Numbered from the stretch's first letter, positions 1,796 through 33,322 are shown. The stretch: DNA of 33,322 bases from Candidatus Thorarchaeota archaeon (GCA_016840685.1 JAEORX010000016.1:1-33322), one strand, 5' to 3'. The notes: generated from the sequence alone by a model not told the origin. Numbers and translations: made by a program.

Positions 1796-2587
1796 GTGCG
1801 GATTAGAATAGCGAAGGGACACCATCCAATGCATGAGCGACTTCACTCGGAACTATTTGCATCAATTGCCACACTTGACCAGCTGAAAAAGCTGTATGAT
1901 CTTGGTGCAGTGGATATTCGATCTTATCAGAGAGAGTCGCAGGCATTGCTTCAGGATGTTCGATCGCAGATTGAGAATATGAAACGTATAGGAGTAGACA
2001 TCGGCACATTCGTGTCAAATGAACGGATTGTCGAAGCTTTTCCAGAGGCAGCCAACTTGCTCAGACTTGGGAGCTACGCCCCCAGGCGTTCCCTACAAGG
2101 AATGACATTGGATCAATTCTATGACTACATTGGGCTAGCGATTCTTGATGTCGCAACTGAGCACTCATCAAAGGGGCTCATGGGCCTGGCGGAACTGATT
2201 GTTGAGGTAGTACGTCGTCTTCCTGAGATCGAATCCGTGACATATAATGATGTGATTGAGGCTGTGAACCGAGTCGCGGAAAATGGGCTCATCCCAGGAA
2301 TTCGTACTCTACGAGGGGGCGTGAAGGTTGTCGAGTTACGGCCACTCGAACTACGACGAGATCAGGCCGATGTGATCAATCTCGCAGCCAGTAAGGGTTA
2401 TGTTTCTGTGGAAGAGGTGATTATGCAACTGAAATGGTCAGAGGATCATGCACGGCAGGTCTTATCCAGCCTTGCTGAAGCAGGGATGGCTGTCGCAGAT
2501 ATCCGCTTTTCAACAGGTGGTCGGTACTATTTCCCAGGACTCCGACCTCGAGAATCCTCTGATCCAAGGACTGCCGGTGCATATTGA
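1796..2587 (+). CDS. vps22: ESCRT-II subunit Vps22/SNF8-like (EAP30 domain)
   Basis: 263 residues resembling the EAP30 family of ESCRT-II, the complex that in eukaryotes links ESCRT-I to ESCRT-III on membranes. Residues about 20-65 look like a helical hairpin or coiled coil. Two winged helices follow, about 105-185 and 188-250. The second is very close in pattern to human SNF8: GYVSVEEVIMQLKW, then HARQVLSSLAEAGMA and a final YYFPGL. The chosen start is GTG 1796, without a clear ribosome site; ATG 1829 (residue 12) is a possible alternative. It faces vps25 convergently with a 2-base gap. The gene lies in a block with vps4 and ESCRT-III, which supports the call. Vps36 is the paralogous alternative, but no GLUE domain is present here. 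Confidence 0.88.
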   Translation: MRIRIAKGHHPMHERLHSELFASIATLDQLKKLYDLGAVDIRSYQRESQALLQDVRSQIENMKRIGVDIGTFVSNERIVEAFPEAANLLRLGSYAPRRSLQGMTLDQFYDYIGLAILDVATEHSSKGLMGLAELIVEVVRRLPEIESVTYNDVIEAVNRVAENGLIPGIRTLRGGVKVVELRPLELRRDQADVINLAASKGYVSVEEVIMQLKWSEDHARQVLSSLAEAGMAVADIRFSTGGRYYFPGLRPRESSDPRTAGAY

Positions 2588-2589
2588 TC

Positions 2590-3321
2590 TCATGTTACAA
2601 TTATAATAGCTCCTTTCTTCTCATCAACCCAGCTTGCAAGTCCTTTCTTCACCATGAGAGCCAGCACAATATGAATGTCCTTCTCTGGAAGGCTAGCAAA
2701 GTCCTGTTTCACTTCTTGAATGACTATTGACTTCACATCAAGTCTTAACTTCCCGGTCTTGAGCGCCCATTGATAGAGAATGTCTGCCCAGTCCTCAAGA
2801 GGTCGCCAATAGACTCTCAGCTGTCGCTCTTTCTTGTCTATCCATTCAGCAACTTCCTTATCCACCAGTATTTGTGTTATAATCTTGAATGAGTCCACTT
2901 TGTTCCTAAAATCCTTGAATGGTGGTTCACTGATGAATGTCGCAAGAGAGAGAACATGTGCCTTTTTGGCCTCCGACCATTCCAACACATAATCTGCCCA
3001 CTCTTCAGCCCACATCTCTTTGTCTTCTTCTCGAGATGGTATACCATACATCCATTCAGTTTCCTCGATATTTCCCCAACTAGGTGATACAAAATCCTGT
3101 TCTGCTGTTGTTGGTATGGATTCATGAACAGAGTTGGCTTCTTCTGCAGATTCTTCAGTTGATGTAGATTGAATGGTTTCGATGACAACCTCTGGACTAG
3201 AAATTTCCTCCTCTGTAATTGTTTCAGTGGAAGGTGGAGATATCTCAACCTGTTTCTCCTCTGAAGGCTTGGATGATTCCTTTGTCTTTGCCTTCTCTCT
3301 CCCTCTCTCCCTTACACCCAC
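2590..3321 (-). CDS. vps25: ESCRT-II subunit Vps25-like with long acidic N-terminal tail
   Basis: 243 residues. The C-terminal 140 residues read as the two winged helices of Vps25, the ESCRT-II subunit that in eukaryotes recruits the first ESCRT-III protein. Landmarks shared with human VPS25 are EWIDKKE followed by a Trp-rich linker (YWRPLEDWADILYQWALKTG) between the two winged helices, and a second-domain helix LPEKDIHIVLALMVKKG. Residues about 1-80 are Glu/Ser/Thr/Pro-rich and predicted disordered; eukaryotic Vps25 (about 176 residues) lacks this. The GTG start at 3321 lies 3 bases past the vps4 stop, with a GGAGG inside the vps4 end, so the two are co-transcribed. The tail could bind a partner or be a spacer; its function is unknown. 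Confidence 0.88.
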   Translation of the reverse strand: MGVRERGREKAKTKESSKPSEEKQVEISPPSTETITEEEISSPEVVIETIQSTSTEESAEEANSVHESIPTTAEQDFVSPSWGNIEETEWMYGIPSREEDKEMWAEEWADYVLEWSEAKKAHVLSLATFISEPPFKDFRNKVDSFKIITQILVDKEVAEWIDKKERQLRVYWRPLEDWADILYQWALKTGKLRLDVKSIVIQEVKQDFASLPEKDIHIVLALMVKKGLASWVDEKKGAIIIVT

Positions 3322-3324
3322 TCT

Positions 3325-4539
3325 CTAGGAACCCTCCGCCCAGTCAATGTATCTCTTCACATCCTCTGGAGGAGTTGCAGGACGTATGTTCTCTATGGCT
3401 TGCAAGAAATCTTCCCTCGATACAGGTCGGATGTCCAGAATCTCCTGTTCATCATCCATCCTACCTGTTCTTTGTAGGTCTCTAATTGGTTCCATCGCTG
3501 CCTCACGACATACTACACTGATGTCTCTTCCACTATAGCCCTCAGTGAGATCTGCGAGTTCTTCGTACTCAACTGCAGGAGAGACCTCAACATCATCCAT
3601 ATGAATCTCGAATATCCTTGCACGAGCTTCTCTTCCAGGAAGTGGGACATGTATTTTCTTCTCAAATCTAGAACGTAGCGCAAAATCAAGTTCCCAAGGA
3701 AGATTTGTGGCTCCAATGAGCGTCAGGCGATCCTCCTCGTTACTTGCAAGTCCTTGCAGTTCCGTGAGGAGTTGAGTCTTCAGACGTCTTTCACCACCGA
3801 CATCATCACCCGACCTAGAAACTCCAATAGAGTCTAATTCATCAATAAAGATGATTGCTGGTTGGTTTTTTCGTGCAAGCTCGAAGAGGTTCATAACCAA
3901 TCGCTCAGATTCACCAAGCCACTTACTGACTATGTTCGCTGCTGACACATTGAAGAATGTTGCATTCACCTCTGATGCGACAGCCTTAGCGATCAAGGTC
4001 TTTCCACACCCTGCAGGTCCATAGAACAATATTCCGCGCCATGGCTGTCTTGCCTTTCCTTTGAAGAGCTCTGGGTGTTTCATAGGAGCTAGGATTGCAT
4101 CATCAATCGCTTGTTTTGCATCTCCAAGACCTGCTACCTCTGACATTTTGATTTTCGGGCGCTCTGTAATTATCGTGTCAGATATCATCTCTCTAAGACG
4201 TTTTTCTTCGTCATCAAGTTCTGCATCTGCTTTCGAGGTCTCTTGAATCGGAACTGGTTCGGGAGTCACTTCAATTCTTGGTGGTGCAACAAGTCCATCC
4301 ACTGGCCCATGAGCCTTCTTTTTGATTCCAGATAGGTATCTCACTCTGTCAACGCACTCCTGTGCCCTGTCAAAATAGTGCTTCTTGACTGAAGGTAGTG
4401 CCGCAGAGTTTGAAAGCTTGATGAGAATCTTGCTAGCCTTAAGGTATTCTTGGCAAGCATCCTTCTTCATTCCTCTCTGGTCTAGTTCAACTGCTCTAGC
4501 AAGCAACGCCTTTAGTCCTTGATCTACCCTGTCTGCCAT
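3325..4539 (-). CDS. vps4: Vps4-family AAA ATPase with N-terminal MIT domain
   Basis: 404 residues. This is the ATPase that disassembles ESCRT-III polymers (CdvC in Sulfolobus, Vps4 in eukaryotes). A three-helix MIT domain spans about 5-75, and a Pro-rich linker reaches about 110. The AAA module follows, with Walker A GPAGCGKT (174-181), pore loop SKWLGE (205-210), Walker B IIFIDE (229-234), sensor 1 Asn279 in GATNLPW, arginine fingers Arg289 and Arg291, and GYSGRDI (334-340) near sensor 2. The C-terminal helix (PEDVKRYIDWAEGS) resembles that of Vps4. It is first in a two-gene operon with vps25 and divergent from the ESCRT-III gene across a 131-base promoter region. All catalytic residues are present, so the enzyme should be active. 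Confidence 0.95.
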   Translation of the reverse strand: MADRVDQGLKALLARAVELDQRGMKKDACQEYLKASKILIKLSNSAALPSVKKHYFDRAQECVDRVRYLSGIKKKAHGPVDGLVAPPRIEVTPEPVPIQETSKADAELDDEEKRLREMISDTIITERPKIKMSEVAGLGDAKQAIDDAILAPMKHPELFKGKARQPWRGILFYGPAGCGKTLIAKAVASEVNATFFNVSAANIVSKWLGESERLVMNLFELARKNQPAIIFIDELDSIGVSRSGDDVGGERRLKTQLLTELQGLASNEEDRLTLIGATNLPWELDFALRSRFEKKIHVPLPGREARARIFEIHMDDVEVSPAVEYEELADLTEGYSGRDISVVCREAAMEPIRDLQRTGRMDDEQEILDIRPVSREDFLQAIENIRPATPPEDVKRYIDWAEGS

Positions 4540-4603
4540 TCGAGTTCATGTGAACAGTATTCGTAAGGTGTTAAGAATTTCTGTCACACCCAGTACATAC
4601 ATA

Positions 4604-4637
4604 CGCAATATCAATTGCGAACTGCGAAGGTTTAAAC
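4604..4637. promoter_or_regulatory. Divergent vps4 / ESCRT-III promoter region with inverted repeat and TATA-like box
   Basis: The 131 bases between vps4 and the ESCRT-III gene hold a perfect 6-bp inverted repeat, CGCAAT-ATCA-ATTGCG, at 4604-4619. A TATA-like TTTAAAC lies at 4631-4637, about 34 bases before the GTG of the ESCRT-III gene. This fits a short-leader archaeal promoter for the plus-strand gene, with a candidate regulator site just upstream of it. Binding by any protein is inference. Confidence 0.4.
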
Positions 4638-4670
4638 GTTAATTCCCACTCATTGACCTGAATTAACTAG

Positions 4671-5288
4671 GTGAGATTCTTGGGTTCAATTAGAAAGGCA
4701 TTCTCTTGGGGTAGAAAGAAACCAGACATAGGTGAGATTTCTAGTCGCCTTAGGATTTTGTCAAAACAACTAGCAAGACAGAGAAACAAGTTGGAGAAGG
4801 AAGAGCATGATGCAAAGGCACGTGCAGTTCGAGCAAGAAAGGGTGGTCAAACAGAGGCGTATCGTACATATGCCACTGAGATGGTTCGCTTTCGTAGATA
4901 TGCTCTTTCAGTCGATAAGTCGCGGTTACAGATACTAAAAATCCTTGCTCACTTGAATCGTGCTCAGACATCTGCAAAGACATCAATAGCTCTTCAGGAA
5001 GTCGCTAAGATTCTCGGAATGCTTGGGGACAGTACTGATGCATCCAAGGTTGTTGCCAATGTGGATGAGATTGCACGTCGTCTTGAGGAGTTTGAGATTG
5101 AAGCCAGTATCTCTGATGAAGCCCTCGATACAACGATGGAAGTGTCTTCTGAGGACCTATCCTCTGCCTTTCAAGAAATCGATGCTGAAGCTGGATTGGC
5201 TGAAGCTCCCTCAATAGCAAGGCCTGCTAGTGAGGCCGAATCACTCGAAGAAGACATCAAAGCCCTGGAACGAGAACTGGGCGTCTAG
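4671..5288 (+). CDS. ESCRT-III (Snf7/CHMP/CdvB-type) filament subunit
   Basis: 205 residues, the length of eukaryotic CHMP proteins. The polymer-forming subunit acts on the inner face of membranes in scission or division. It starts with a basic amphipathic stretch (MRFLGSIRKAFSWGRKK), as in membrane-binding Snf7 proteins. Long, highly charged helices follow (about 20-80 and 82-115), matching the ESCRT-III core hairpin. The tail from about 150 is acidic. The extreme C terminus (SLEEDIKALERELGV) has the spacing of an MIT-interacting helix (MIM1-like), which would bind the MIT domain of the neighbouring Vps4. The GTG start at 4671 follows a TATA-like box by about 34 bases. Only one ESCRT-III gene is present in the window; Asgard genomes usually have a second. 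Confidence 0.88.
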   Translation: MRFLGSIRKAFSWGRKKPDIGEISSRLRILSKQLARQRNKLEKEEHDAKARAVRARKGGQTEAYRTYATEMVRFRRYALSVDKSRLQILKILAHLNRAQTSAKTSIALQEVAKILGMLGDSTDASKVVANVDEIARRLEEFEIEASISDEALDTTMEVSSEDLSSAFQEIDAEAGLAEAPSIARPASEAESLEEDIKALERELGV

Positions 5289-5290
5289 CA

Positions 5291-6868
5291 TCACCAGAGT
5301 TTATCACGCGTTTCACTTCTGACACGTTCCATCTCGCGTCTGTTATGATAAGAGTCTCTCATCAGGTCACGGTATCTTCTGATAAAGTCTTCAGTAACAA
5401 GTTGCCCACTACGAAGCATGTGCACTGTGTCTCGTATTGCATTTTCGATTGAAGCGGCGTCTCTCTGTAAGGAGTGCATTCTGGGGCTTGTTTCGTAAGA
5501 AGGATATGTACTTCTCTTCTGATCATATTGCCCAATTACTCGGTCGAGTTCATCACGGAAGGATTCAGGTTTCTGATAATAACCATCATAAGGATATCGA
5601 CGAACGGGAGGTGTTCTCCAGTCACCAATATGAGGTCTTGAGTTAGGTGGCAGTACTGGCATGTCTTCAGCATATTGTGAATGATCGTTAGTGGATAAAA
5701 GCGAATAGACCATCCCCTCAATCTTCAGACGCACATCGCTTGTACCAATGTCAGTCTGTTCTATCTTCCTGACTCTCTGCATATCTGTTTGAATGTACTT
5801 GTCAAATTTTCGGGCTATCTCTATATAATCAGGCAAGACCTTCTTTGTCTGCTCTGAGCAAGTTGCCTTGATCTCTCCCTGCTTCAACTTCAAGACCAGT
5901 CGTTTCCTCAACCTCCCATCTTCTTCAATAGACTTCAGGTAAATCAATGGGAAGTCAAAGATGGTTTCCATTTTCTTGCGAACTCTTCCAGTTTCAGCCA
6001 CAAAGAGGAGTCTCTTGTTGGTGATGAACAGCGTTCCAAGAGCTTTATCATTTTTGAGAAAGTCACTTCCAGCGATCTTGATATCTGGAAGGGCACAGAC
6101 GGGTAGCTCTCCCACTGTTAGTTGTCCATGCTCATAAAATGAGGCAAACTGACCCTTGTAATAATCAAGCCCCTCAAGTTGTCTCCTGACCTCTTTGAGT
6201 GTATTTCTTAGTGGTTCAAGGGACTCATCGACATTTTGTTTGTAGTAGATCCCCATCTCTGTTATCCTATTTGTTATCCCCTCTACAAACGGGAACTGCG
6301 ACGATTTCCATTGAGTGTAGTCAATGAAGTCCTTGGTCTCTGCGGCCATTCTCTTAGCTATGATTTCTGCCTGACTTGCAATCCGATTCTTAATTGCTGG
6401 GAGTTCATTCTGAATACCTTCAATCTTCTCCTCAATCCATCTATAATGAAGGAAATTTGCCATTCTCAGTGACACAAGCAGTCTCTTTGCACTGGCAAGT
6501 TTGTTAGTAAATTCTCTCATTTTCGTATGACCGTATTGAATGGTCATGATTGCATGTCGCATGTCTAGTGCAAGCGACCTCCTTCTGTCTTCTAGAAGTA
6601 CGACTCTGGATGAGTGGCATCTTGAACATATGTCTATAGTCTTTCTTCCTTTGCTCAGGTTCGTGGACTCGCATTGGGGACACTCTAGGAACTTCTCTCC
6701 TGGTGCTGGTGAACCAAGCGTATGATGGCAGTCACTACAGATAATGTACTCACTTGTTCGTGTTTCAAGACACTCCGAGCACAATGCTGCTCCACAATCC
6801 TCGCACATGTGTGTGGCTCTGTTTGACTGACATGATCTGCATTGTCCAATTGAGGAATCTTCTGTCAT
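5291..6868 (-). CDS. Zinc-finger / coiled-coil / GRAM-PH-like protein with C-terminal steadiness-box-like domain (ESCRT-I-like candidate)
   Basis: 525 residues, not a family I can name as a whole. In order: a B-box-like zinc region with four CxxC pairs (Cys10/13, 22/25, 30/33, 44/47); a second zinc ribbon (Cys63/66, 81/84); a long helical or coiled-coil region (about 95-240); a GRAM/bPH-like beta region (about 250-355, with GTLFITNKRLLFV); a Pro/Tyr-rich linker (400-465); and a C-terminal helical domain (470-525). That last domain resembles the steadiness box of TSG101/Vps23, with AIRDTVHML and VTEDFIRRYRDLMRD aligning in pattern. The steadiness box is the part of ESCRT-I that binds Vps28. 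GGAGGT lies 6 bases before the ATG. It converges on the ESCRT-III gene with 2 bases between. An ESCRT-I or membrane-adaptor role is inference. Confidence 0.7.
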   Translation of the reverse strand: MTEDSSIGQCRSCQSNRATHMCEDCGAALCSECLETRTSEYIICSDCHHTLGSPAPGEKFLECPQCESTNLSKGRKTIDICSRCHSSRVVLLEDRRRSLALDMRHAIMTIQYGHTKMREFTNKLASAKRLLVSLRMANFLHYRWIEEKIEGIQNELPAIKNRIASQAEIIAKRMAAETKDFIDYTQWKSSQFPFVEGITNRITEMGIYYKQNVDESLEPLRNTLKEVRRQLEGLDYYKGQFASFYEHGQLTVGELPVCALPDIKIAGSDFLKNDKALGTLFITNKRLLFVAETGRVRKKMETIFDFPLIYLKSIEEDGRLRKRLVLKLKQGEIKATCSEQTKKVLPDYIEIARKFDKYIQTDMQRVRKIEQTDIGTSDVRLKIEGMVYSLLSTNDHSQYAEDMPVLPPNSRPHIGDWRTPPVRRYPYDGYYQKPESFRDELDRVIGQYDQKRSTYPSYETSPRMHSLQRDAASIENAIRDTVHMLRSGQLVTEDFIRRYRDLMRDSYHNRREMERVRSETRDKLW

Positions 6869-7034
6869 GTGAGTACCTCCGGTAGTCTATTTTCAACGAG
6901 GAGTTATCCAAGAATAACCCGTGTATTATTCTAAGAACATTGGAGTATGTGTTTTGATGGTGCTGAAAGAATGTACAAGCCATATCAGTTATATCCAATT
7001 TGAAGGGCTGAGGCTCAGTTCAAAGGCGATATTC

Positions 7035-8420
7035 ATGGAAGATCTTGCTCAGGCCGCCTTAGACGCAGCTCTGGATATAGGTGTCAGCTTCGCTGATGTT
7101 CGAATAGAGAACTCGACCACAACTATCATCGAACTCAATGATGGCATCACAAGACAGTCAGTCGCCTCTCGAATGAAGGGTGCTGGTATACGTGCCTTCA
7201 TTGATGGTGCCTGGGCTTTTGCTCAGACAACAGATCTAACAGCCACTGGGATGCGAACTACAGCCGAGTCAGTTGCGAAGCTAGCTCTGGCCACAAGAGA
7301 AAAGGTGAATGAGCGGTTTGTAATCGATGGTCCTCGTTTTGAGGACAAAGTCAAGCTGAAGGTAAAGAAACCCTTCGATAAAGTCTCGATTGATGAGAAG
7401 ATGCAGTTTGTCAAGATGATTGACGAACAAGCTCGCGATTTTGATGACCGAATCGTAGCTACCAGGACAATCTATGGCGAACTAACATCCAATCTCCTCA
7501 TCGCAAATACATTGGGCACCAATGTTACTCTTGAGAACTCAATTCCCCAAATTATTTCTGTCCCTACAGCAAAGGAGGGACCCAACAGACAAAGAATCCA
7601 ACAATCCCTGAGCCTGCGAAGTGGATTCGAAGAAATGGAAACCGAACAGGCTCAAAACATAGGTACAAAGGCTGCTGAACTTGCAGTCAATCTATTGTCC
7701 TCTAAAACAGCTGAAGGAGGCATCTACGATGTTGTCCTCGACCCAGCCCTCAACGGCGTTGTGATGCATGAGGCATTTGGGCATGCAACTGAGGCGGACA
7801 ACTGGCCAGCACATTCAACAGTTCTCGAGGACAAGATTAACAGAGAAGTAGGTCCAGAACACCTTAGCATAAGTGACGATCCAACACTCACTGGAATGCG
7901 TGGGTCATCTGAATACGATTGGGAAGGTACACGGGCTAAAAAACGGCTCTTGGTAAAAAATGGAGTTCTTACAGACCTCCTCCACAGTCTTGAAACTTCA
8001 AGTAGATTGCATCTTGAGCCTAACGGAGCTGCAAGAGCTCAGTCCTTCATGCATGTACCACTACCCAGAATGAGCAACACTTTCATGGAACCCGGAAACT
8101 GGAGTGTCGAGGAGCTCATCAGAGATACAAAGAACGGCATTCTCCTTTGTAGTTTCAACTATGGTTACACTCAATCTGCAAAGGGGCAATTCATGTTCCA
8201 AGCCAGTCATGGATATATGATTGAAAATGGGGAGATAGGAGTAATGGTCCGGGATGTATCACTTGCTGGAAATATTCTCGAGGTCTTGGCAAAGATTGAT
8301 GCGATTGGGAAGGACTTCGAATTGGAGGCGGGAGTATGTGGCAAGGATGGTCAAAGTGTTCCCACAACGACTGGGGGTCCCCATGCTAGAATCAGGCAGA
8401 TGCCAGTAGGAGGTATGTGA
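7035..8420 (+). CDS. tldD: TldD-family zinc metalloprotease, catalytic subunit
   Basis: 461 residues from the chosen ATG at 7035. TldD pairs with TldE (PmbA) to form a heterodimeric protease that in bacteria degrades unfolded peptides and matures ribosomal peptides. The zinc motif HEAFGH is at about 245-250 and is followed by ATEAD, the usual TldD signature. The C-terminal part has the family's SFNYGYTQSAKGQFMF region and ends near GGPHARIRQMPVGG. The frame is open back to a GTG at 6921, but those 38 extra residues look unlike the family, and MEDLAQAALDAALDIG is a typical TldD beginning. The tldE start lies 2 bases past its stop, so the two are translated together. Confidence 0.93.
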   Translation: MEDLAQAALDAALDIGVSFADVRIENSTTTIIELNDGITRQSVASRMKGAGIRAFIDGAWAFAQTTDLTATGMRTTAESVAKLALATREKVNERFVIDGPRFEDKVKLKVKKPFDKVSIDEKMQFVKMIDEQARDFDDRIVATRTIYGELTSNLLIANTLGTNVTLENSIPQIISVPTAKEGPNRQRIQQSLSLRSGFEEMETEQAQNIGTKAAELAVNLLSSKTAEGGIYDVVLDPALNGVVMHEAFGHATEADNWPAHSTVLEDKINREVGPEHLSISDDPTLTGMRGSSEYDWEGTRAKKRLLVKNGVLTDLLHSLETSSRLHLEPNGAARAQSFMHVPLPRMSNTFMEPGNWSVEELIRDTKNGILLCSFNYGYTQSAKGQFMFQASHGYMIENGEIGVMVRDVSLAGNILEVLAKIDAIGKDFELEAGVCGKDGQSVPTTTGGPHARIRQMPVGGM

Positions 8421-11680: not shown

Positions 11681-12054
11681 GCATATCTCACCCAGAAGTA
11701 AGAGAGATTCATCATCGTTTCTTCATAAATCAAACGCTAGATATCTGAATGAATCAACATCTTTCGCAACTTACATTATTGAAAGTACTTTTGTATATTC
11801 GTTTCAAAAATTTCGTTTTAAATAGATATGACATAAACACATGCAATCTATTTATCAAAAAAACAGTTGAATTATTAAATAATCTACAAAGGCTTTATAT
11901 TGGTTTTTGTGTGCGCATCTGTAGCCGTTCGCCCGTTGGACGGCTCACCAACGCCACAAATGACAAGGATTCTCTCCACGCCAGAGGGAATCGATGCATT
12001 CGATCAACCCACAGCTCTGACCGCAGTGCCACTCATGAGGTGGGCTGCAGGGAG
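11681..12054 (+). promoter_or_regulatory. 374-base gap before TFB: AT-rich promoter candidate and a leader hairpin
   Basis: No convincing gene is seen here. The first part is AT-rich, with TATA-like TTTTAAATA at 11816-11824. The later part is more balanced and contains a perfect 6-bp inverted repeat, CGTTGG (11934-11939) and CCAACG (11948-11953), with an 8-base loop. If transcription starts near 11850, the TFB mRNA would have a leader of about 200 bases, unusually long for archaea. An open frame runs through it in phase with TFB, but its translation does not look like protein. Confidence 0.35.
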
Positions 12055-13017
12055 ATGATTGGACTGGCCAGCAGACACTCAAAGACCCAAAGGAAGAGAG
12101 AGCAAATTGGCTCGGCTAGTTATGTCTGTTCTGCTTGTAATTGTGTTGATGTCTATATAGACCACACTCGTGGTGAAGTGATTTGTTCTAGTTGCGGATT
12201 AGTTCTTTCGGACCATTCTATAGATACTGGTCCAGAATGGAGGGCTTTTACAGCTGATGAGCAAAATGCACGACAGCGTGTAGGAGGCCCTACTGACTGG
12301 AGTAAGTTTGATCAAGGTCTTACTACTACCATTGGTCGTCAGAATGTTGATGCATCAGGAAGAAAGCTCACGTCGACACGAAGAGCAGAGATACACAGAC
12401 TCAGAAAATGGCAGATCCGAACCAAGGTGCACTCCTCTGACAAACGCAACCTTGCTGTTGCGATGACTGAACTTCATAGAATAAGCTCTCAATTGAGTAT
12501 CCCGTATTCGATTCGAGAGACCTCCGCCGTGATCTACAGGAAAGCCCTACGAAAGAGGCTGACCCGTGGTCGTACCATTCTCGGGATGATTGCCGCCTCG
12601 CTTTATCTGGCATGTAGAGTTCATCAAGTTCCTCGTCCTCTTGAGGAGATTGTAGAGCATATACACATCACACGGAAGGAACTCAGCCTCTGTGTTCGAC
12701 TCATTCTTCGGTATCTGAATCTCAAGATACCACATAGCAATCCTATTGAGTTTGTTCACCGCTTTGGTACTGAACTTGAACTCCCAGGTGAAGCAAAGAA
12801 GAAAGCAATTGATATTCTCAATCTTGCGAGAGAGCAGAGACTCACAATTGGCAAGGATCCTAAAGGAATGGCGGCTGCTGCAATCTATGTTGCTAGCATC
12901 CTCACAGGCGCTAGACGGACCCAACTTGAGATTGCTCGCACAGCTCGTGTGACTGAGGTCACCGTTAGGAACCGCTACAAGGAAATGGTGGAAAGGCTAA
13001 ATATATCCACTACCTAG
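12055..13017 (+). CDS. tfb: Transcription initiation factor IIB (TFB)
   Basis: 320 residues from ATG 12055. TFB binds TBP and the BRE and recruits RNA polymerase. A zinc ribbon has Cys25, 28, 44 and 47 (CSAC, then CSSCGLV). The B-finger/linker follows (PEWRAFTADEQNARQRVGGP). Two cyclin-like repeats then cover about 120-215 and 220-315, with the typical KGMAAAAIYVASILTG near the end. The frame is open far upstream to ATG 11749, but the extra 102 residues are not protein-like. A start at 12055 leaves 24 residues before the zinc ribbon, slightly longer than usual. A strong hairpin overlaps its stop codon. Asgard archaea often have several TFBs, so this may be one of a set. Confidence 0.93.
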   Translation: MIGLASRHSKTQRKREQIGSASYVCSACNCVDVYIDHTRGEVICSSCGLVLSDHSIDTGPEWRAFTADEQNARQRVGGPTDWSKFDQGLTTTIGRQNVDASGRKLTSTRRAEIHRLRKWQIRTKVHSSDKRNLAVAMTELHRISSQLSIPYSIRETSAVIYRKALRKRLTRGRTILGMIAASLYLACRVHQVPRPLEEIVEHIHITRKELSLCVRLILRYLNLKIPHSNPIEFVHRFGTELELPGEAKKKAIDILNLAREQRLTIGKDPKGMAAAAIYVASILTGARRTQLEIARTARVTEVTVRNRYKEMVERLNISTT

Positions 13018-16784: not shown

Positions 16785-17723
16785 ATGGCAGATGTGTCCT
16801 CTGAAACCACTAGTTCCAAGCGTTTCTACCCAATGGCCTGGCTCTCAATCATCAGACCACAGAATTGTTTCATTGGTGGTTTGACTGTTATTGCAGGTGT
16901 AGCAATGGCCTATAATTTAGCCAGAATTGGTACTCTTTCCACGCATCTATTGCTATTCATCTATGGCTATGTTACTTACTTCTTCGTTGCAGCAGGTGGA
17001 AATGTTGTGAACGATATCTTTGACATTGAAGTTGACAAAATCAATCGACCACATCGAGCACTACCGAGTGGGAGAATGACAATCAGGCAGGCTTGGGCGT
17101 TTGTGGCATTTCTGAGCATTGTGGGTCTTCTGTTCGCTATTCTTACCGGTCCATATAGCGCATTGATCGTGCTCTGTTTCCAAATCATCGGCTATGTCTA
17201 TGCGGCAAAGGTGAAGACGCTAGGTCTTGCAGGAAATTTCATGGTTGCATTTTCCTTTGCATTTGGAGTTTTGTATGGCGCGTTCGCCTTTGGCGAAACT
17301 GTAGGATTTCCCCTAATCAATACCATTCCAATACCTCATTGGCTCTTCTTCTTCACAGCATTTCTCATTCTTCAAGCACGGGAAACCATTAAGGGTGCTG
17401 AAGATGTTGAAGGTGATAAAGCACGGGATGTCCGTACGATTGCTAGAATCTACGGTTATAATGTGGCCGCGGCAGTAGCAGCAGGTCTCAACTTTATTGG
17501 TGTTCTGAGTTATGTGTTGATATGGATTTGGGGATTTGCGAGTTGGGACTTATGGCCACTACTCGTTCTAGGCACTGGTATTGTATTAGGAGCTGGGATT
17601 GCACCCCTCACTGGGCCTGATAATAAACGGGCCCTTATGATTGGAAGCACACTAGATAAGGTAGGTGCTCTTGTGGGTTTAATCGCTTTCGTGGTCATTC
17701 CACTCTATGGAATCCTATTCTAA
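16785..17723 (+). CDS. UbiA prenyltransferase, probable digeranylgeranylglyceryl phosphate synthase
   Basis: 312 residues, an integral membrane protein with about eight or nine hydrophobic segments. The two Asp-rich UbiA motifs are present: NDIFDIEVD (76-84) followed by NRPHRALPSG, and the second DVEGDKARDVRT near 205-216. The first is typical of archaeal enzymes that add the second geranylgeranyl chain in membrane ether-lipid synthesis (DGGGP synthase). Other UbiA members such as haem or quinone prenyltransferases remain possible, but the pattern and length favour the lipid enzyme. It overlaps the convergent YIP1 gene by 4 bases at its stop. Confidence 0.85.
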   Translation: MADVSSETTSSKRFYPMAWLSIIRPQNCFIGGLTVIAGVAMAYNLARIGTLSTHLLLFIYGYVTYFFVAAGGNVVNDIFDIEVDKINRPHRALPSGRMTIRQAWAFVAFLSIVGLLFAILTGPYSALIVLCFQIIGYVYAAKVKTLGLAGNFMVAFSFAFGVLYGAFAFGETVGFPLINTIPIPHWLFFFTAFLILQARETIKGAEDVEGDKARDVRTIARIYGYNVAAAVAAGLNFIGVLSYVLIWIWGFASWDLWPLLVLGTGIVLGAGIAPLTGPDNKRALMIGSTLDKVGALVGLIAFVVIPLYGILF

Positions 17724-18556
17724 TGGGCTTGCCAAAATGTCCAGACCAAGACAATCACACATGCAATCGCAACCAAGGCCGCCCACAGGGTTGATGTATC
17801 ATGGGCTTCTCTTATTCCAAAAATCAGCAGAACCCCTGTCCACAAGAACGCTCCTGTGGTAATGATATCAATTGTGAACCAAATACCAGATGTGTATGCC
17901 CAGTTTATTACTAATGGTGTGATTGTATCCAGAGCTCCCTGATTCATGAAGTCAACAACATCTGGATAGGGCGGAAGCGCAATAATAACGGCCAAAATCG
18001 CTATCAATCTCACCAAGATAACAGGCATCATGCTATACCCAACAATGGAGAGGCTCTTCGTCCATTTTCCTGTGCCACCAGTTACCTTGAAGGCAAAGTG
18101 CGCGAATGCAGTTCCAACAATGAGGTAGATGAGTCCTATCATAATGCTTGGCATCATCCCCACCAGCGCAACAATCCAGACCATGCTGCCCTGTGGAGTA
18201 GCTAGCAGGTTTGCCTGCCCAATCTCCATTGTTGTCGCATTCAGAATTACATTTGTCGTGATCTTCGAGGACAAAGAGAGAAAGAGTCCTGCCAAAATCA
18301 GTGCATTGATCAGTATTATCACAAAAGGGCCTGCGGCATCGGGTCTTTGTCCTATATCCCGATAGGTGGATGATGGTCTTCTAATCACACCCCAGAGCCT
18401 CTCACGAGTCCCCATGAACTTGACTTCAGGAGACTCAGGTCTCTTCAGGATTGGTAAAATCCTCTCCAGGGTTTCCTCTGCTATTGTTTCCTTGCAGACT
18501 GGACAAATAGTTGCATCCGCTGGAACCGGACTATCGCAGAATTCGCAACGACGCAC
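17720..18556 (-). CDS. Zinc-ribbon YIP1-domain membrane protein
   Basis: 278 residues. An N-terminal zinc ribbon (Cys4, Cys7, Cys18, Cys21) faces the cytosol. It is followed by a YIP1-type entry (ERLWGVIRRPSSTYRDIGQRP, split as VIRRPSSTYRDI) and five hydrophobic segments. YIP1 proteins in eukaryotes bind Rab GTPases and act in vesicle traffic. Prokaryotic relatives are widespread and uncharacterised. The start is GTG at 18556. The combination of zinc ribbon and YIP1 is common in archaea, so this is not by itself Asgard-specific. Confidence 0.75.
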   Translation of the reverse strand: MRRCEFCDSPVPADATICPVCKETIAEETLERILPILKRPESPEVKFMGTRERLWGVIRRPSSTYRDIGQRPDAAGPFVIILINALILAGLFLSLSSKITTNVILNATTMEIGQANLLATPQGSMVWIVALVGMMPSIMIGLIYLIVGTAFAHFAFKVTGGTGKWTKSLSIVGYSMMPVILVRLIAILAVIIALPPYPDVVDFMNQGALDTITPLVINWAYTSGIWFTIDIITTGAFLWTGVLLIFGIREAHDTSTLWAALVAIACVIVLVWTFWQAH

Positions 18557-28987: not shown

Positions 28988-30871
28988 TCATAGATTGAGG
29001 AGGAAGGTGTACTGGTCGTCCTCAATGCTGAGCTTACTCTCAATCAGCTTGCCAGTTCTGTGAATGAAGTCAATCATTGGGATGTTCTTTGGATGTACGT
29101 AGGCAATGAACGCACTAACACCCTTGCTCTTTGCAATCCGCATCATCTGACTCAATAGGAACGTACCAATCCCCTTGTTCTGATACTCATCCTGCACAAG
29201 AAGAGCAAACTCTGCTTGGTTGGTACTTCTATTCAACAAGTATCTCCCAGCGGCGATGATTTTTTCGCATTCTTCTCCCTGTCCCAACACCCCAACAAGG
29301 GATATGTCCGACTCCTGGTCAACATAGTAGAACTCCTGAAGTGTCTGTCTACGCAGGCTTCTGAGAGGAGTCAAGAACCTGAAGAAGATTGATTCTTCAC
29401 TGAGTCCATAAAAGAGACCTTTGATTCGATCTGCATCATCTGGTCGAATCAGTCTCACATGTACAGTTATTGGTCCCTCTGGACCTTCAAACTCCTCCTG
29501 TGCTTCATATTCGGTTGGGAAGTAGGTCCCTCTTGATAGAAATGGAACCTGATCCTCAAACACATATCGCATATCCTTGGCTGCTTCAAGAAGTCCATTT
29601 CGGAATTCTGGATGTGCAATGGCAATGAGAGATAGGACACGCTCCCGTATTGTCTTCCCTCGAAGCATGGCTAGACCATACTCTGTGATTATCACATCCA
29701 CATCGCCACGTGTTGTAACAACTCCTGCCCCTTCACTAAGACGTGGGACTATTTTCGAAACTGTTCCATTAAGTGCCGTAGATTTAAGGCATATGACAGA
29801 CTTTCCACCTTCTGACCTGGAGGCTCCTCTAATGAAGTCCACTTGGCCTCCAATTCCACTATAAAACGCATGACCAATTGAGTCTGAACAGACCTGACCA
29901 GTCAGGTCAACCTCCAGAGCTGAATTAATGGCCACCATTTTCCTATTCTGACTGATGATATATGGATCGTTCACATAGGATGTGTCTCTGAAGTCGAATA
30001 ATGGATTGTTGTTCACATAGTCATAGAGCTTCTTTGTACCCATTGCAAAACTTGCAGTGACCTTTCCTCGATTGATACTCTTCTTCATATTTGTGACAAT
30101 TCCACTCTCGATCAAGTCGATTATGCTATCGCTGAATGTTTCAGTATGTACTCCCAGGTCCTTGACTGCGGAATTGATGAGGTTCGTAGTGACTGCCTTA
30201 GCAACCGTACCAATACCGACTTCAATTGTGGACTCATTCTCTATTAGTTTCGCTGCATACTCACCAATACGGTTTTTCCGCTCGCTTACATCTGGTGATT
30301 CAAACTCTCTCAGGGGTTCAGTAAAGGGTACAAGATAGTCCATCTCCTTCACATGCAGAAAGGAATCACCATGGGTGACAGGCATTCTCTCGTTCACTTG
30401 CGCAATCACCAAGTCTGCATTTTCTGCTCCTGTTTTTGTGATGTCTACGGAAATTCCGAGTGAACAATAACCAAACTCATCTGGAGGACTGACCTGTATC
30501 AATGCCGCATCAAGTGGTATCCTCCTTGTTCTAAAGAAAAATGGAATATCTGATAATGGTGCTGGTGTATAATCTGCACGACCCTCAGAAACTGCATTTC
30601 TAATATTGTCTGATACAAAGAATGTATTGTGCCTGAACTGTGTTTGGAACTTCGGATCTGCAGAAGGTGTGTTACCAATTGTGAGTAGATGGACTATCTC
30701 ATTATCCGCCATCTTGTTTGCATTCTTTCCTAATTCCTGAACAAGGTGAAATGGGACACCGCAGCCTGTTCCGAGAAAAATACGACTACCTCTTCTAATC
30801 TTCGAAATGGCCTTGGTAGCGGTAACAATCTTGTTCTTGTATCTCTCAGTCCAATCTCCTTTGGCATTCAT
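28988..30871 (-). CDS. Acetyl-CoA hydrolase/CoA-transferase fused to a GNAT acetyltransferase domain
   Basis: 627 residues. Residues about 10-440 match the acetyl-CoA hydrolase / 4-hydroxybutyrate CoA-transferase family: SRIFLGTGCGVPFHLVQEL at the start, GIGTVAKAV in the middle, and VDVIITEYGLAMLRGKTIRE in the second half. Residues about 470-620 are a GNAT domain with the acetyl-CoA loop QDEYQNKGIGTFLLSQMM. The two domains share acetyl-CoA as a ligand, so self-regulation or protein acetylation linked to CoA level is conceivable. Relatives with this fusion exist in bacteria. GAGG lies about 10 bases before the ATG. It lies beside the CODH/ACS genes, which fits acetyl-CoA metabolism. Confidence 0.88.
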   Translation of the reverse strand: MNAKGDWTERYKNKIVTATKAISKIRRGSRIFLGTGCGVPFHLVQELGKNANKMADNEIVHLLTIGNTPSADPKFQTQFRHNTFFVSDNIRNAVSEGRADYTPAPLSDIPFFFRTRRIPLDAALIQVSPPDEFGYCSLGISVDITKTGAENADLVIAQVNERMPVTHGDSFLHVKEMDYLVPFTEPLREFESPDVSERKNRIGEYAAKLIENESTIEVGIGTVAKAVTTNLINSAVKDLGVHTETFSDSIIDLIESGIVTNMKKSINRGKVTASFAMGTKKLYDYVNNNPLFDFRDTSYVNDPYIISQNRKMVAINSALEVDLTGQVCSDSIGHAFYSGIGGQVDFIRGASRSEGGKSVICLKSTALNGTVSKIVPRLSEGAGVVTTRGDVDVIITEYGLAMLRGKTIRERVLSLIAIAHPEFRNGLLEAAKDMRYVFEDQVPFLSRGTYFPTEYEAQEEFEGPEGPITVHVRLIRPDDADRIKGLFYGLSEESIFFRFLTPLRSLRRQTLQEFYYVDQESDISLVGVLGQGEECEKIIAAGRYLLNRSTNQAEFALLVQDEYQNKGIGTFLLSQMMRIAKSKGVSAFIAYVHPKNIPMIDFIHRTGKLIESKLSIEDDQYTFLLNL

Positions 30872-30945: not shown

Positions 30946-31755
30946 TTAGGAGTCTTGTCCGAGTAACTTAAGCAGTGTGACTTCACTGAGCAAGCCAAGT
31001 TTTTCGGCTATGGATTCTACTGCTTTCACTGCAGGTGATTCTCCATCGAGCTCAAACAATGGTACTCCATTGTAGTTTACTTTCATGAGTTCTTCATCAC
31101 TGGGAATCATCCCAATGAGTTGTAACCCTTCAGCCTCAAACTGGCTCCTGAGGTCTTCCTCCATCTCTACAGGAAACCTATTTCCAATCACAACAATCTT
31201 CTTGAATTCAATATGAACCTCCTTTGCTAGGTCCCTTATCCTCAAAGCGGCCTCAAAAGCAGCTCTTGATGGGTCCACTACAATAATGAGAACATCTACA
31301 TTTCTATTAGTACGTCTACTTAGGTGTTCGAGACCTGCAGTCATATCCAGCAATGTGATTTCATAGTTCTTACTCAAAGTATCTAGAATCTGGGTGAGGA
31401 GCCTATTGACATAGCAATAACACCCCTCGCCCTCTGTTCTTCCCATCGCTAAGAAATCGAATTTTGGGCTCTCGATGAGTGCCTCAAAAATCTCTCCTTC
31501 CAGCACATCCTGCTTTGTAACCTCCCCAGAATATGTACCTTTATCAATATCTTGTCGTAGCTTGGTCGCAATTGAACCGACTGATTTTGAAACTTCAATT
31601 CCAAGAGCTCTGGGCAGATTCATAACAGGATCTGCATCAACAACGAGAAGGTCTCTTTTTGTCTTCTCAATGACAATTCGTGTAAGAAGAGCGGCTGCTG
31701 TTGTCTTTCCCACACCACCCTTGCCTGATATCGAAATTACTAGACGCTCTCTCAT
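30946..31755 (-). CDS. cooC: CooC/AcsF-like nickel-insertion ATPase for CODH/ACS
   Basis: 269 residues from ATG 31755, a MinD/ParA-fold ATPase. The deviant Walker A SGKGGVGKTT sits at 9-18. The CooC signature GEGCYCYVN carries the Cys-x-Cys metal site that binds nickel between monomers. DMTAGLEHLSR is the family switch II region. CooC matures the nickel-containing C cluster of CO dehydrogenase. It directly follows cdhE, with 11 bases between. An ATG at 31782 in frame would overlap cdhE; the GAGGAG there is nearer to serve the 31755 start. Confidence 0.9.
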   Translation of the reverse strand: MRERLVISISGKGGVGKTTAAALLTRIVIEKTKRDLLVVDADPVMNLPRALGIEVSKSVGSIATKLRQDIDKGTYSGEVTKQDVLEGEIFEALIESPKFDFLAMGRTEGEGCYCYVNRLLTQILDTLSKNYEITLLDMTAGLEHLSRRTNRNVDVLIIVVDPSRAAFEAALRIRDLAKEVHIEFKKIVVIGNRFPVEMEEDLRSQFEAEGLQLIGMIPSDEELMKVNYNGVPLFELDGESPAVKAVESIAEKLGLLSEVTLLKLLGQDS

Positions 31756-31766
31756 ACTAGCAGATT

Positions 31767-33182
31767 TCACTCCTCTTTCCATTTGCCCTCTTGTAAATAC
31801 TTTGGAATTCCGCTCGAATCTCGTGGACCAACTTTGACAGTCCACCCACTGACATCTTCAGTTTCGCCACTGATTCGCGCTGCCATCCCTGGACTGATCA
31901 AGATTTTATGGTTCACTTTGTCAGCGACTTTGTATTCCTCGAGAGCTTCTGCTACTCCATCAGCTGTGAGCTTTCGTCCTGCTACGGCGGATTGAACGCT
32001 CATTCCTTCTGTATCAACTACAAGCAAATATGCTTTGACGCCTGCTTGCTTGATGTCACTCTCGACAGTAAAGTATGTCAGAGCAAAATTCGTTGTATAC
32101 ATAACAGGTGAGTCAGGATTTACGTCTCCAAATTCCATCAATCCAGGTTCAACTGCTACTGGCTTTACTGGGTCTGTATAGAGGTTGCTACGGAGGAATG
32201 TAATCGGGAGATTAGTCCACATGTCTACACTGTGCAAGATAAGTATGTCTGCGTACCTTACAATCTGAGCTGATGCTGTTAAGACTTCATCCCATTTAGT
32301 TAGTTCAGGAGCCTCGTCCTTCTTATAATCTGCCCAGACTGAAATTGGAGTGCCAAGTATAGGATACCCTAGTAGCTCGTTGTCTTCGATTATTGCCGAA
32401 CGCCTTAGTTGCGTGAAATCATCAACTGTATTTCCAAGACCTGTTCTAGAAGTAGTCCCTGGGTCAAGAACAATATCCTCTACGCCTATAGCACGAAGCG
32501 TGCTCACAAGCGAAGCAAGATTGTCAAGACTCCCTGGTGCATATGCCACAAGTGGTAGATTATGTGTTGCTGCAAACTCGCCAACCTCTGCCCATGTGTC
32601 TAAAGTGGCAGCATAGAGTAAAGGACGTTTTTCTACTATTGATTTAGCTGCTGCTACAAGCATCTTCGGATCCAAGGAACAAAGAATTATTGGCCAGTTA
32701 GTCAGTTCAGTCAGTTTCTTCGCAGCTGTGGCAAAGGTCTTTGGGTCTTGAGAAACTCCTCGAAGAGCAATCCCATCTAAGCGGAGGTTTGTACCAATAT
32801 AGACATAGGTCCAGTCTTCTATGGATTTCACCCTTGCAGCTAGACCCTCTGCATCAAGTGTGTCTGGTGCATCAAGGAAGAATGCAGTCGGATTACTCCA
32901 TCTCAGATCATGCCTATAGAGGACTAGTTTTCCTCCAACGCTAGTAGCTCTCTCTCCAGTCCCGATTACAACCTCTCTGACTGGTGGCCGAACCAGATCT
33001 CTGAGTTTCTCCAATTTCTTTGCATATTTCATCTCATCAAAAAGAGGAGTGCACGCCTTGAGTTTCACTGTGTGTTCAGCCATCTTTGTAGCAAAAGCCA
33101 TACAATTTGCTTCTCCACACTCTTTGCAGTTTGTCCCTGGGAGGAGTGGATAAATCTCGAGCGGACCTGGTAACTTAGCCAT
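31767..33182 (-). CDS. cdhE: Acetyl-CoA decarbonylase/synthase gamma subunit (corrinoid iron-sulfur protein, large subunit)
   Basis: 471 residues from ATG 33182. CdhE, with CdhD, carries the corrinoid that moves the methyl group from tetrahydropterin to the acetyl-CoA synthase in the Wood-Ljungdahl pathway. Cys19, Cys22, Cys27 and Cys44 near the N terminus (GTNCKECGEANC and KACTPLF) hold the 4Fe-4S cluster. A TIM barrel and a C-terminal cobamide-binding domain follow. GGAGGGAG lies 5 bases before the ATG, and TAATG joins it to the upstream cdhD stop. A frame to 33260 exists but only repeats cdhD in another phase. Confidence 0.95.
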   Translation of the reverse strand: MAKLPGPLEIYPLLPGTNCKECGEANCMAFATKMAEHTVKLKACTPLFDEMKYAKKLEKLRDLVRPPVREVVIGTGERATSVGGKLVLYRHDLRWSNPTAFFLDAPDTLDAEGLAARVKSIEDWTYVYIGTNLRLDGIALRGVSQDPKTFATAAKKLTELTNWPIILCSLDPKMLVAAAKSIVEKRPLLYAATLDTWAEVGEFAATHNLPLVAYAPGSLDNLASLVSTLRAIGVEDIVLDPGTTSRTGLGNTVDDFTQLRRSAIIEDNELLGYPILGTPISVWADYKKDEAPELTKWDEVLTASAQIVRYADILILHSVDMWTNLPITFLRSNLYTDPVKPVAVEPGLMEFGDVNPDSPVMYTTNFALTYFTVESDIKQAGVKAYLLVVDTEGMSVQSAVAGRKLTADGVAEALEEYKVADKVNHKILISPGMAARISGETEDVSGWTVKVGPRDSSGIPKYLQEGKWKEE

Positions 33183-33322
33183 TAGACTCCCTCCGGTATT
33201 GTCAATGTTGTCCAGTCTGGATACTCTTCTGGTTTGATTGTTTGTCGCTCCTTCATCCAATCCACAAGGTCATGTACAGTCTTGATTGCTGCAGGATGCA
33301 TCATCATGAAGAGGTCATTTCC
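33182..33322 (-). CDS. cdhD: Acetyl-CoA decarbonylase/synthase delta subunit, C-terminal end only
   Basis: The minus-strand frame entering from the right edge translates as GNDLFMMMHPAAIKTVHDLV and ends with TIPEGV at TAA 33184-33182. The GND-FMMMHP motif is the well-known C-terminal signature of CdhD, the small corrinoid subunit. Only the last 46 residues are in the window. The stop overlaps the cdhE ATG by one base (TAATG), so the operon order is cdhD-cdhE-cooC. Confidence 0.9.
   Translation of the reverse strand, partial: GNDLFMMMHPAAIKTVHDLVDWMKERQTIKPEEYPDWTTLTIPEGV

Follow-up and report, generated by a model that had tools for sequence, protein, structure and literature searches.

A conserved five-gene ESCRT cluster in a Candidatus Thorarchaeota genome

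Five genes were found at positions 1796-6868 of a 33,322-nucleotide stretch of Candidatus Thorarchaeota DNA (GCA_016840685.1 JAEORX010000016.1:1-33322; hereafter the window), encoding Vps22, Vps25, Vps4, a Snf7-family ESCRT-III protein and a 525-residue zinc/coiled-coil/PH/steadiness-box protein (the SB protein). The window is contig C103 of a metagenome-assembled genome (MAG) of 3.23 Mb in 252 contigs, which is 93.8% complete with 7% contamination. All genome-wide statements derive from profile searches; those for ubiquitin, E2/UEV, Pfam Vps28 and the SB protein were carried out on 25 Thorarchaeota genomes (the host and 24 relatives of its family) and, in the same way, on 14 other Asgard genomes. 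An ESCRT locus of Asgard type had been predicted here from the DNA (the original prediction), and its gene coordinates, strands and gaps all agreed with our analysis, as did the assignment to the Asgard type. Pfam detected the EAP30, Vps25 and Snf7 domains, each with E < 1e-10, and we regard the gene identities in the locus as practically certain.

The first gene (1796..2587, plus strand) encodes Vps22, a 263-residue ESCRT-II protein of the EAP30 family that matched Pfam EAP30 (9.1e-15) and PDB SNF8/Vps22 (8e-17). At its N-terminus it carries a steadiness-box hairpin of Vps28 type (about residues 11-92), which tandem winged helices follow. AlphaFold placed the hairpin at residues 11-36/41-64, ahead of two winged helices, and Foldseek with this model returned human ESCRT-II SNF8 as the best match (9.7e-9). 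Residues 14-93 matched an Asgard Vps28 profile at 55.6 bits, and throughout the Thorarchaeota Vps22 family the first ~95 residues matched it at about 47-64 bits, in agreement with the steadiness-box fusion on Asgard Vps22 described by Makarova et al. (PMC10936438). Vps25 (2590..3321, minus strand; 243 residues) matched Pfam ESCRT-II (5.2e-15) and the PDB entry 7pb9, "Tandem WH domains of Vps25" (5e-32), and carries a Ser/Glu-rich N-terminal extension of about 85 residues before its tandem winged helices. The EAP30 protein and the tandem winged-helix Vps25 identify the pair as ESCRT-II, and complex formation between Vps22 and Vps25 has been published for other Asgard proteins (PMC9192718).

The third gene (3325..4539, minus strand) encodes a 404-residue AAA ATPase with MIT, AAA and Vps4_C domains, a Walker A motif (GPAGCGKT) and a Walker B motif (IIFIDELD), the domain combination of Vps4/ESCRT-IV. 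Pfam reported AAA (1.5e-39), AAA_lid_3 and Vps4_C, with AAA and Vps4_C over the cut-off, and a weak MIT match (8e-4) below it. The PDB search aligned human VPS4B to residues 12-358, covering MIT and AAA, and Cdc48-type AAA domains outscored VPS4B over the ATPase part.

The ESCRT-III gene (4671..5288, plus strand) encodes a 205-residue protein with a Snf7 domain (2.7e-11; 43.9 bits versus a cut-off of 27.3). Its best PDB matches were CHMP1B, CHMP2A and CHMP3, ranked above SNF7/CHMP4-7, and it bears a MIM1-like C-terminal helix (SLEEDIKALERELGV), a tail that is kept in the Thorarchaeota orthologues. The match ranking and the tail place the predicted protein in the A type (CHMP1/2/3-like). Only one ESCRT-III gene had been seen originally, a view that was rejected when a genome search recovered a second, starting at C141:4356 and continued on C97; the overlapping contig ends are identical at 441/451 positions and represent a single B-type gene, whose product ranked Heimdall ESCRT-IIIB first and SNF7 next. 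The host genome carries two ESCRT-III classes, the A type in the locus and the B type (Snf7-like) elsewhere, and exactly two Snf7 matches were obtained in most Thorarchaeota genomes.

The fifth gene (5291..6868, minus strand) encodes the SB protein, which had been predicted to be steadiness-box-like, correctly so according to its structural model and an orthologue. AlphaFold (mean pLDDT 73) modelled a zinc region, long helices, a PH-like sandwich, a linker and a helical hairpin. We delimited a zinc module of B-box/zinc-ribbon type (residues 10-91), an antiparallel coiled coil (residues 92-247), a PH domain with a C-terminal helix (residues 256-371) and, after a disordered linker, a C-terminal steadiness-box hairpin (residues 462-524). 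Invariant cysteines, arranged in pairs, lie within residues 10-85 in 22 orthologues, 13 of which matched zf-B_box (best 7.9e-6), and Foldseek matched many PH domains to the protein, including the Vps36 PH domain (2cay, E 2.4e-3). The window protein matched no Pfam family above cut-off, and its steadiness-box region scored near noise against the Asgard Vps28 profile; among its Asgard orthologues, that of L121 passed the cut-off for Vps23_core (3.1e-6) and that of L125 the cut-off for bPH_3. A reading of the coiled coil as a BAR or RhoGEF DH domain was discarded, as the Foldseek matches, headed by DH-PH proteins with the ACAP1 BAR-PH lower, had a query TM of 0.14-0.24 and an rmsd of mostly about 17 or more.

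The SB protein was present in 24 of the 25 Thorarchaeota genomes and in 9 of the 14 other Asgard genomes, where some matches were partial. It belongs to the Znr_PH_CC_SB family (asCOG cog.011556), which Makarova et al. 2024 found in the ESCRT neighbourhood and proposed as an ESCRT-I component (PMC10936438), and which likewise unites zinc domains, a coiled coil, PH and a steadiness box in one protein. The family description gives zinc ribbons, whereas the first zinc domain scored as a B-box, also of ANCHR-like type, in many Thorarchaeota members. As in eukaryotic ESCRT-II, where Vps36 carries a GLUE (PH) domain, a PH module would be tied to ESCRT-II through a protein partner; in eukaryotes, however, it sits on an EAP30 paralogue (Vps36), whereas in Thorarchaeota, in which no Vps36 was seen, it sits on a separate steadiness-box protein.

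The gene order was then compared by searching with the window proteins. A tRNA synthetase gene (Asp/Asn class) is followed by Vps22 on the plus strand, Vps25 and Vps4 on the minus strand, ESCRT-III on the plus strand, the SB gene on the minus strand, TldD and TldE on the plus strand and ArgRS on the minus strand, and this order was found in about 28 Thorarchaeota loci, to the limit of each contig. The exceptions were L130 (genome G019), in which the SB/ESCRT-III pair is inverted and lies about 3 kb off, and some loci with a displaced tRNA synthetase gene. The gap between Vps25 and Vps4 is exactly 3 nt in 28/28 loci. The SB gene is also divergent from TldD, a point absent from the original prediction. 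The TldD frame (6921-8420) probably begins too early at GTG 6921, the 461-residue TldD of a close relative (L006) pointing to ATG 7035, with which the spacing to the SB gene becomes about 166 bp.

Both convergent gene pairs are tightly packed across Thorarchaeota, with gaps of -7 to 48 nt (median 3.5 nt) for Vps22/Vps25 and -4 to 8 nt (median 1 nt) for ESCRT-III/SB. The retention of such gaps could mean that the mixed-strand order is a regulatory device, in which abutting 3' ends let antisense read-through couple the gene pairs. However, other Asgard genomes space Vps22 and Vps25 about 12-51 nt apart, so the tightness is not general, and deletion alone yields such gaps in compact genomes; we consider this explanation very unlikely.

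The 131-bp gap between Vps4 and ESCRT-III had been described as one divergent promoter. Motif matches and their conservation replaced the shared bidirectional promoter with two probable BRE/TATA elements, conserved, back to back and oppositely directed. Over 853 kb strand-bases from 29 Thorarchaeota sequences, the element assigned to the transcript of vps4 and vps25 (TTAAGAATTTCTG in plus-strand reading; 4571..4583, minus strand) had 19 similar matches, each of them in the Vps4/ESCRT-III gap. For the element assigned to the ESCRT-III gene (CGAAGGTTTAAACG; 4625..4638, plus strand), the motif CGAARGTTTAAACG gave 23 matches in the same sequences, all just upstream of ESCRT-III, and none elsewhere in the 853 kb strand-bases.

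The core of this layout extends to other Asgard families. Vps22 is convergent with Vps25 in six genomes, and Vps4 is divergent from ESCRT-III in six, five of which (L117, L120, L121, L123 and L125) have IIIA and IIIB in tandem; in L121 and L125 the SB gene follows IIIB convergently. In several of these other Asgard genomes, Vps28 is codirected with Vps22 and lies shortly upstream of it, in some together with a UEV gene. The arrangement had been called unusual, but the synteny rejects this, since the layout is fixed in Thorarchaeota and its core is found outside them, and common ancestry is very likely its source. In the Ub-ESCRT clusters of Odin, Loki and Heimdall type (Hatano et al. 2022, PMC9192718), Vps22 is convergent with Vps25-Vps4 and, in several, ESCRT-III is divergent from Vps4, as in Thorarchaeota; unlike in those clusters, Ub, E2/UEV and canonical Vps28 went undetected, and ESCRT-IIIB lies outside the Thorarchaeota cluster. 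According to Makarova et al., vps25, vps4 and ESCRT-III are typically codirected (PMC10936438), whereas the window ESCRT-III lies on the opposite strand. Compared with the other Asgard genomes, the Thorarchaeota locus resembles their common cluster without Vps28/UEV and ESCRT-IIIB. On the simplest reading, which rests on gene order with the polarity of change inferred, the core layout would be older, and in Thorarchaeota the Vps28/UEV genes would have disappeared and IIIB would have been relocated.

The window Vps4 is 91-94% identical to those of the nearest public Thorarchaeota MAGs (94% to Thor AB_25). The AB_25 and SMTZ1-45 loci share genes, order and strands with the window, have near-identical gaps and Vps4 proteins 92-94% identical, and differ from it only at the level expected between species. 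Both the set of genes and the fifth gene's family are already published (PMC9192718, PMC10936438), and the layout largely so. We conclude that the five genes form the usual ESCRT-II/ESCRT-IIIA/Vps4/SB-protein cluster of Thorarchaeota, an Asgard lineage; the cluster is real, ordinary and well conserved, and adds one further Thorarchaeota example.

ESCRT, a membrane-cutting machinery, is guided by a ubiquitin tag in human cells. Searches of the host genome for ubiquitin, E2 and Vps28, suggested with the original prediction, detected none of them. Profile searches for ubiquitin, and likewise for E2/UEV (UQ_con/UEV), matched 0/25 Thorarchaeota versus 12/14 other Asgard genomes, and Pfam Vps28 (E<=0.001) matched 0/25 versus 11/14. 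Neither the ubiquitin and E2 genes of a ubiquitin-directed ESCRT system nor the UEV-bearing Vps23 of canonical ESCRT-I was found in the 25 Thorarchaeota genomes, which are related, so that one or a few losses are represented rather than 25 independent ones. The lack of ubiquitin in Thorarchaeota was already published. The Asgard Vps28 profile, run for canonical Vps28 on 47 Thorarchaeota genomes, matched essentially only the Vps22 N-terminus, and Vps28 was absent from the ESCRT locus in every Thorarchaeota genome examined. A firm absence of Vps28 was nevertheless dropped, because a divergent Vps28-BAR fusion has been reported in Thorarchaeia (PMC10307638), which the Pfam and Asgard Vps28 profiles used here did not recover. 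The non-detection of ubiquitin, E2/UEV and canonical Vps28, all outside the window, is more informative than the locus itself.

The main candidates for the Vps28 profile other than Vps22 were a weak match in G047, within an 816-residue frame, and a weak hairpin in L222. The latter lies in a 1002-residue membrane protein (G000:C238, 2186-5194; UPF0182, 3.5e-16), and in several Thorarchaeota genomes such hairpins gave weak matches (E about 0.001-0.02) to the steadiness-box profile of Asgard Vps28; they may be chance coiled-coil matches or belong to a steadiness-box-bearing membrane partner. In G013, a Thorarchaeota genome that is 86% complete, ESCRT-II, Snf7 and SB-protein matches were all absent, probably owing to missing contigs.

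The most likely mechanism for the cluster has five steps, and the explanation as a whole, cluster and mechanism together, is given a probability of about 0.6. The SB protein would bind the membrane through its PH domain and cargo or a partner through its zinc module (step 1), and its C-terminal steadiness box would pair with the N-terminal steadiness box of Vps22 (step 2), giving an ESCRT-I-like headpiece that lacks Vps23 and canonical Vps28. The Vps22-Vps25 complex would then nucleate ESCRT-IIIB, encoded elsewhere in the genome (step 3), IIIB would recruit the IIIA protein of the locus (step 4), and Vps4 would remodel the polymer through MIT-MIM contacts, followed by membrane scission (step 5). 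Steps 3-5 follow published biochemistry of Asgard proteins: Vps22 self-association, Vps25-IIIB and IIIA-IIIB contacts and Vps4 activity were shown in Asgard proteins (PMC9192718), and the order of IIIB before IIIA is published (PMC11804906). Steps 1-2 are offered tentatively, with the odds somewhat against them. A contact between the Loki SB protein and Vps22 was shown (PMC9192718); counting against step 2, as far as the sequences indicate, are the near-noise score of the steadiness-box region with the Vps28 profile and a Vps23_core match that comes via an orthologue.

The main rival to steps 1-2 is a retained Vps28 bridge, in which the partner of the SB protein would be a divergent Vps28 (Vps28-BAR) whose C-terminal part contacts Vps22, much as in Loki and Odin archaea. 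Vps28 may still take part in ESCRT-I bridging, given the Vps28-BAR fusion reported in Thorarchaeia that our searches missed (PMC10307638), and yeast two-hybrid results for Loki and Thor suggest contact between SB and Vps28, the Thor contact being termed "possible" (Hatano et al., PMC9192718). Weighing against such a bridge are the zero Pfam matches in 25 genomes, the restriction of Asgard-profile matches in 47 genomes essentially to the Vps22 N-terminus and the position of any Vps28 outside the ESCRT locus; it is a serious possibility that we place below even odds. Rather doubtful is the more inclusive proposal of a ubiquitin-free ESCRT system, in which the B-box/zinc, coiled-coil, PH and steadiness-box protein would replace Vps23, Vps28 and the Vps36 GLUE domain, would dock on Vps22 directly by way of the latter's fused steadiness box, and would recognise cargo or membrane through its zinc/PH module, with no need of a ubiquitin signal.

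The event served by the machinery could be vesicle release, membrane-protein turnover or division. Crenarchaeal CdvABC also combines ESCRT-III with a Vps4 ATPase, and ESCRT-III/Vps4 act in the division of Thermoproteota (PMC5840170, PMC11796394). The Thorarchaeota machine might serve CdvABC-like division, with the ESCRT-II and SB genes as accessory factors that target the division site, and without ubiquitin no sorting signal is obvious. We judge this unlikely; unlike CdvABC, Thorarchaeota have ESCRT-II, steadiness boxes and A and B classes of ESCRT-III, and a full ESCRT-II with a PH/SB protein exceeds what Cdv systems use.

The ubiquitin step is usually assumed to have driven the elaboration of ESCRT before eukaryotes. 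The instructive point is that this cluster works in cells where ubiquitin went undetected, which makes Thorarchaeota a natural test case for whether recruitment of ESCRT-III by ESCRT-I/II is possible without ubiquitin, and the comparison separates the core ESCRT layout common to Asgard families from the parts that Thorarchaeota lack.

Elsewhere in the window, a TFIIB homologue (11749-13017) has a reading frame that starts ~125 residues before its zinc ribbon, reflecting either a start called too early or an extension at the N-terminus, and a Yip1-domain membrane protein (5.6e-24) is encoded at 17720-18556, the Yip1 family being tied to eukaryotic vesicle trafficking. At 28988-30871, the N- and C-terminal domains of an acetyl-CoA hydrolase/transferase share a single reading frame with a GNAT acetyltransferase domain. 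A MinD/ParA-type ATPase (30946-31845) adjoins CdhD (31767-33260), a delta-type subunit of CO dehydrogenase/acetyl-CoA synthase with an Fe-S motif.
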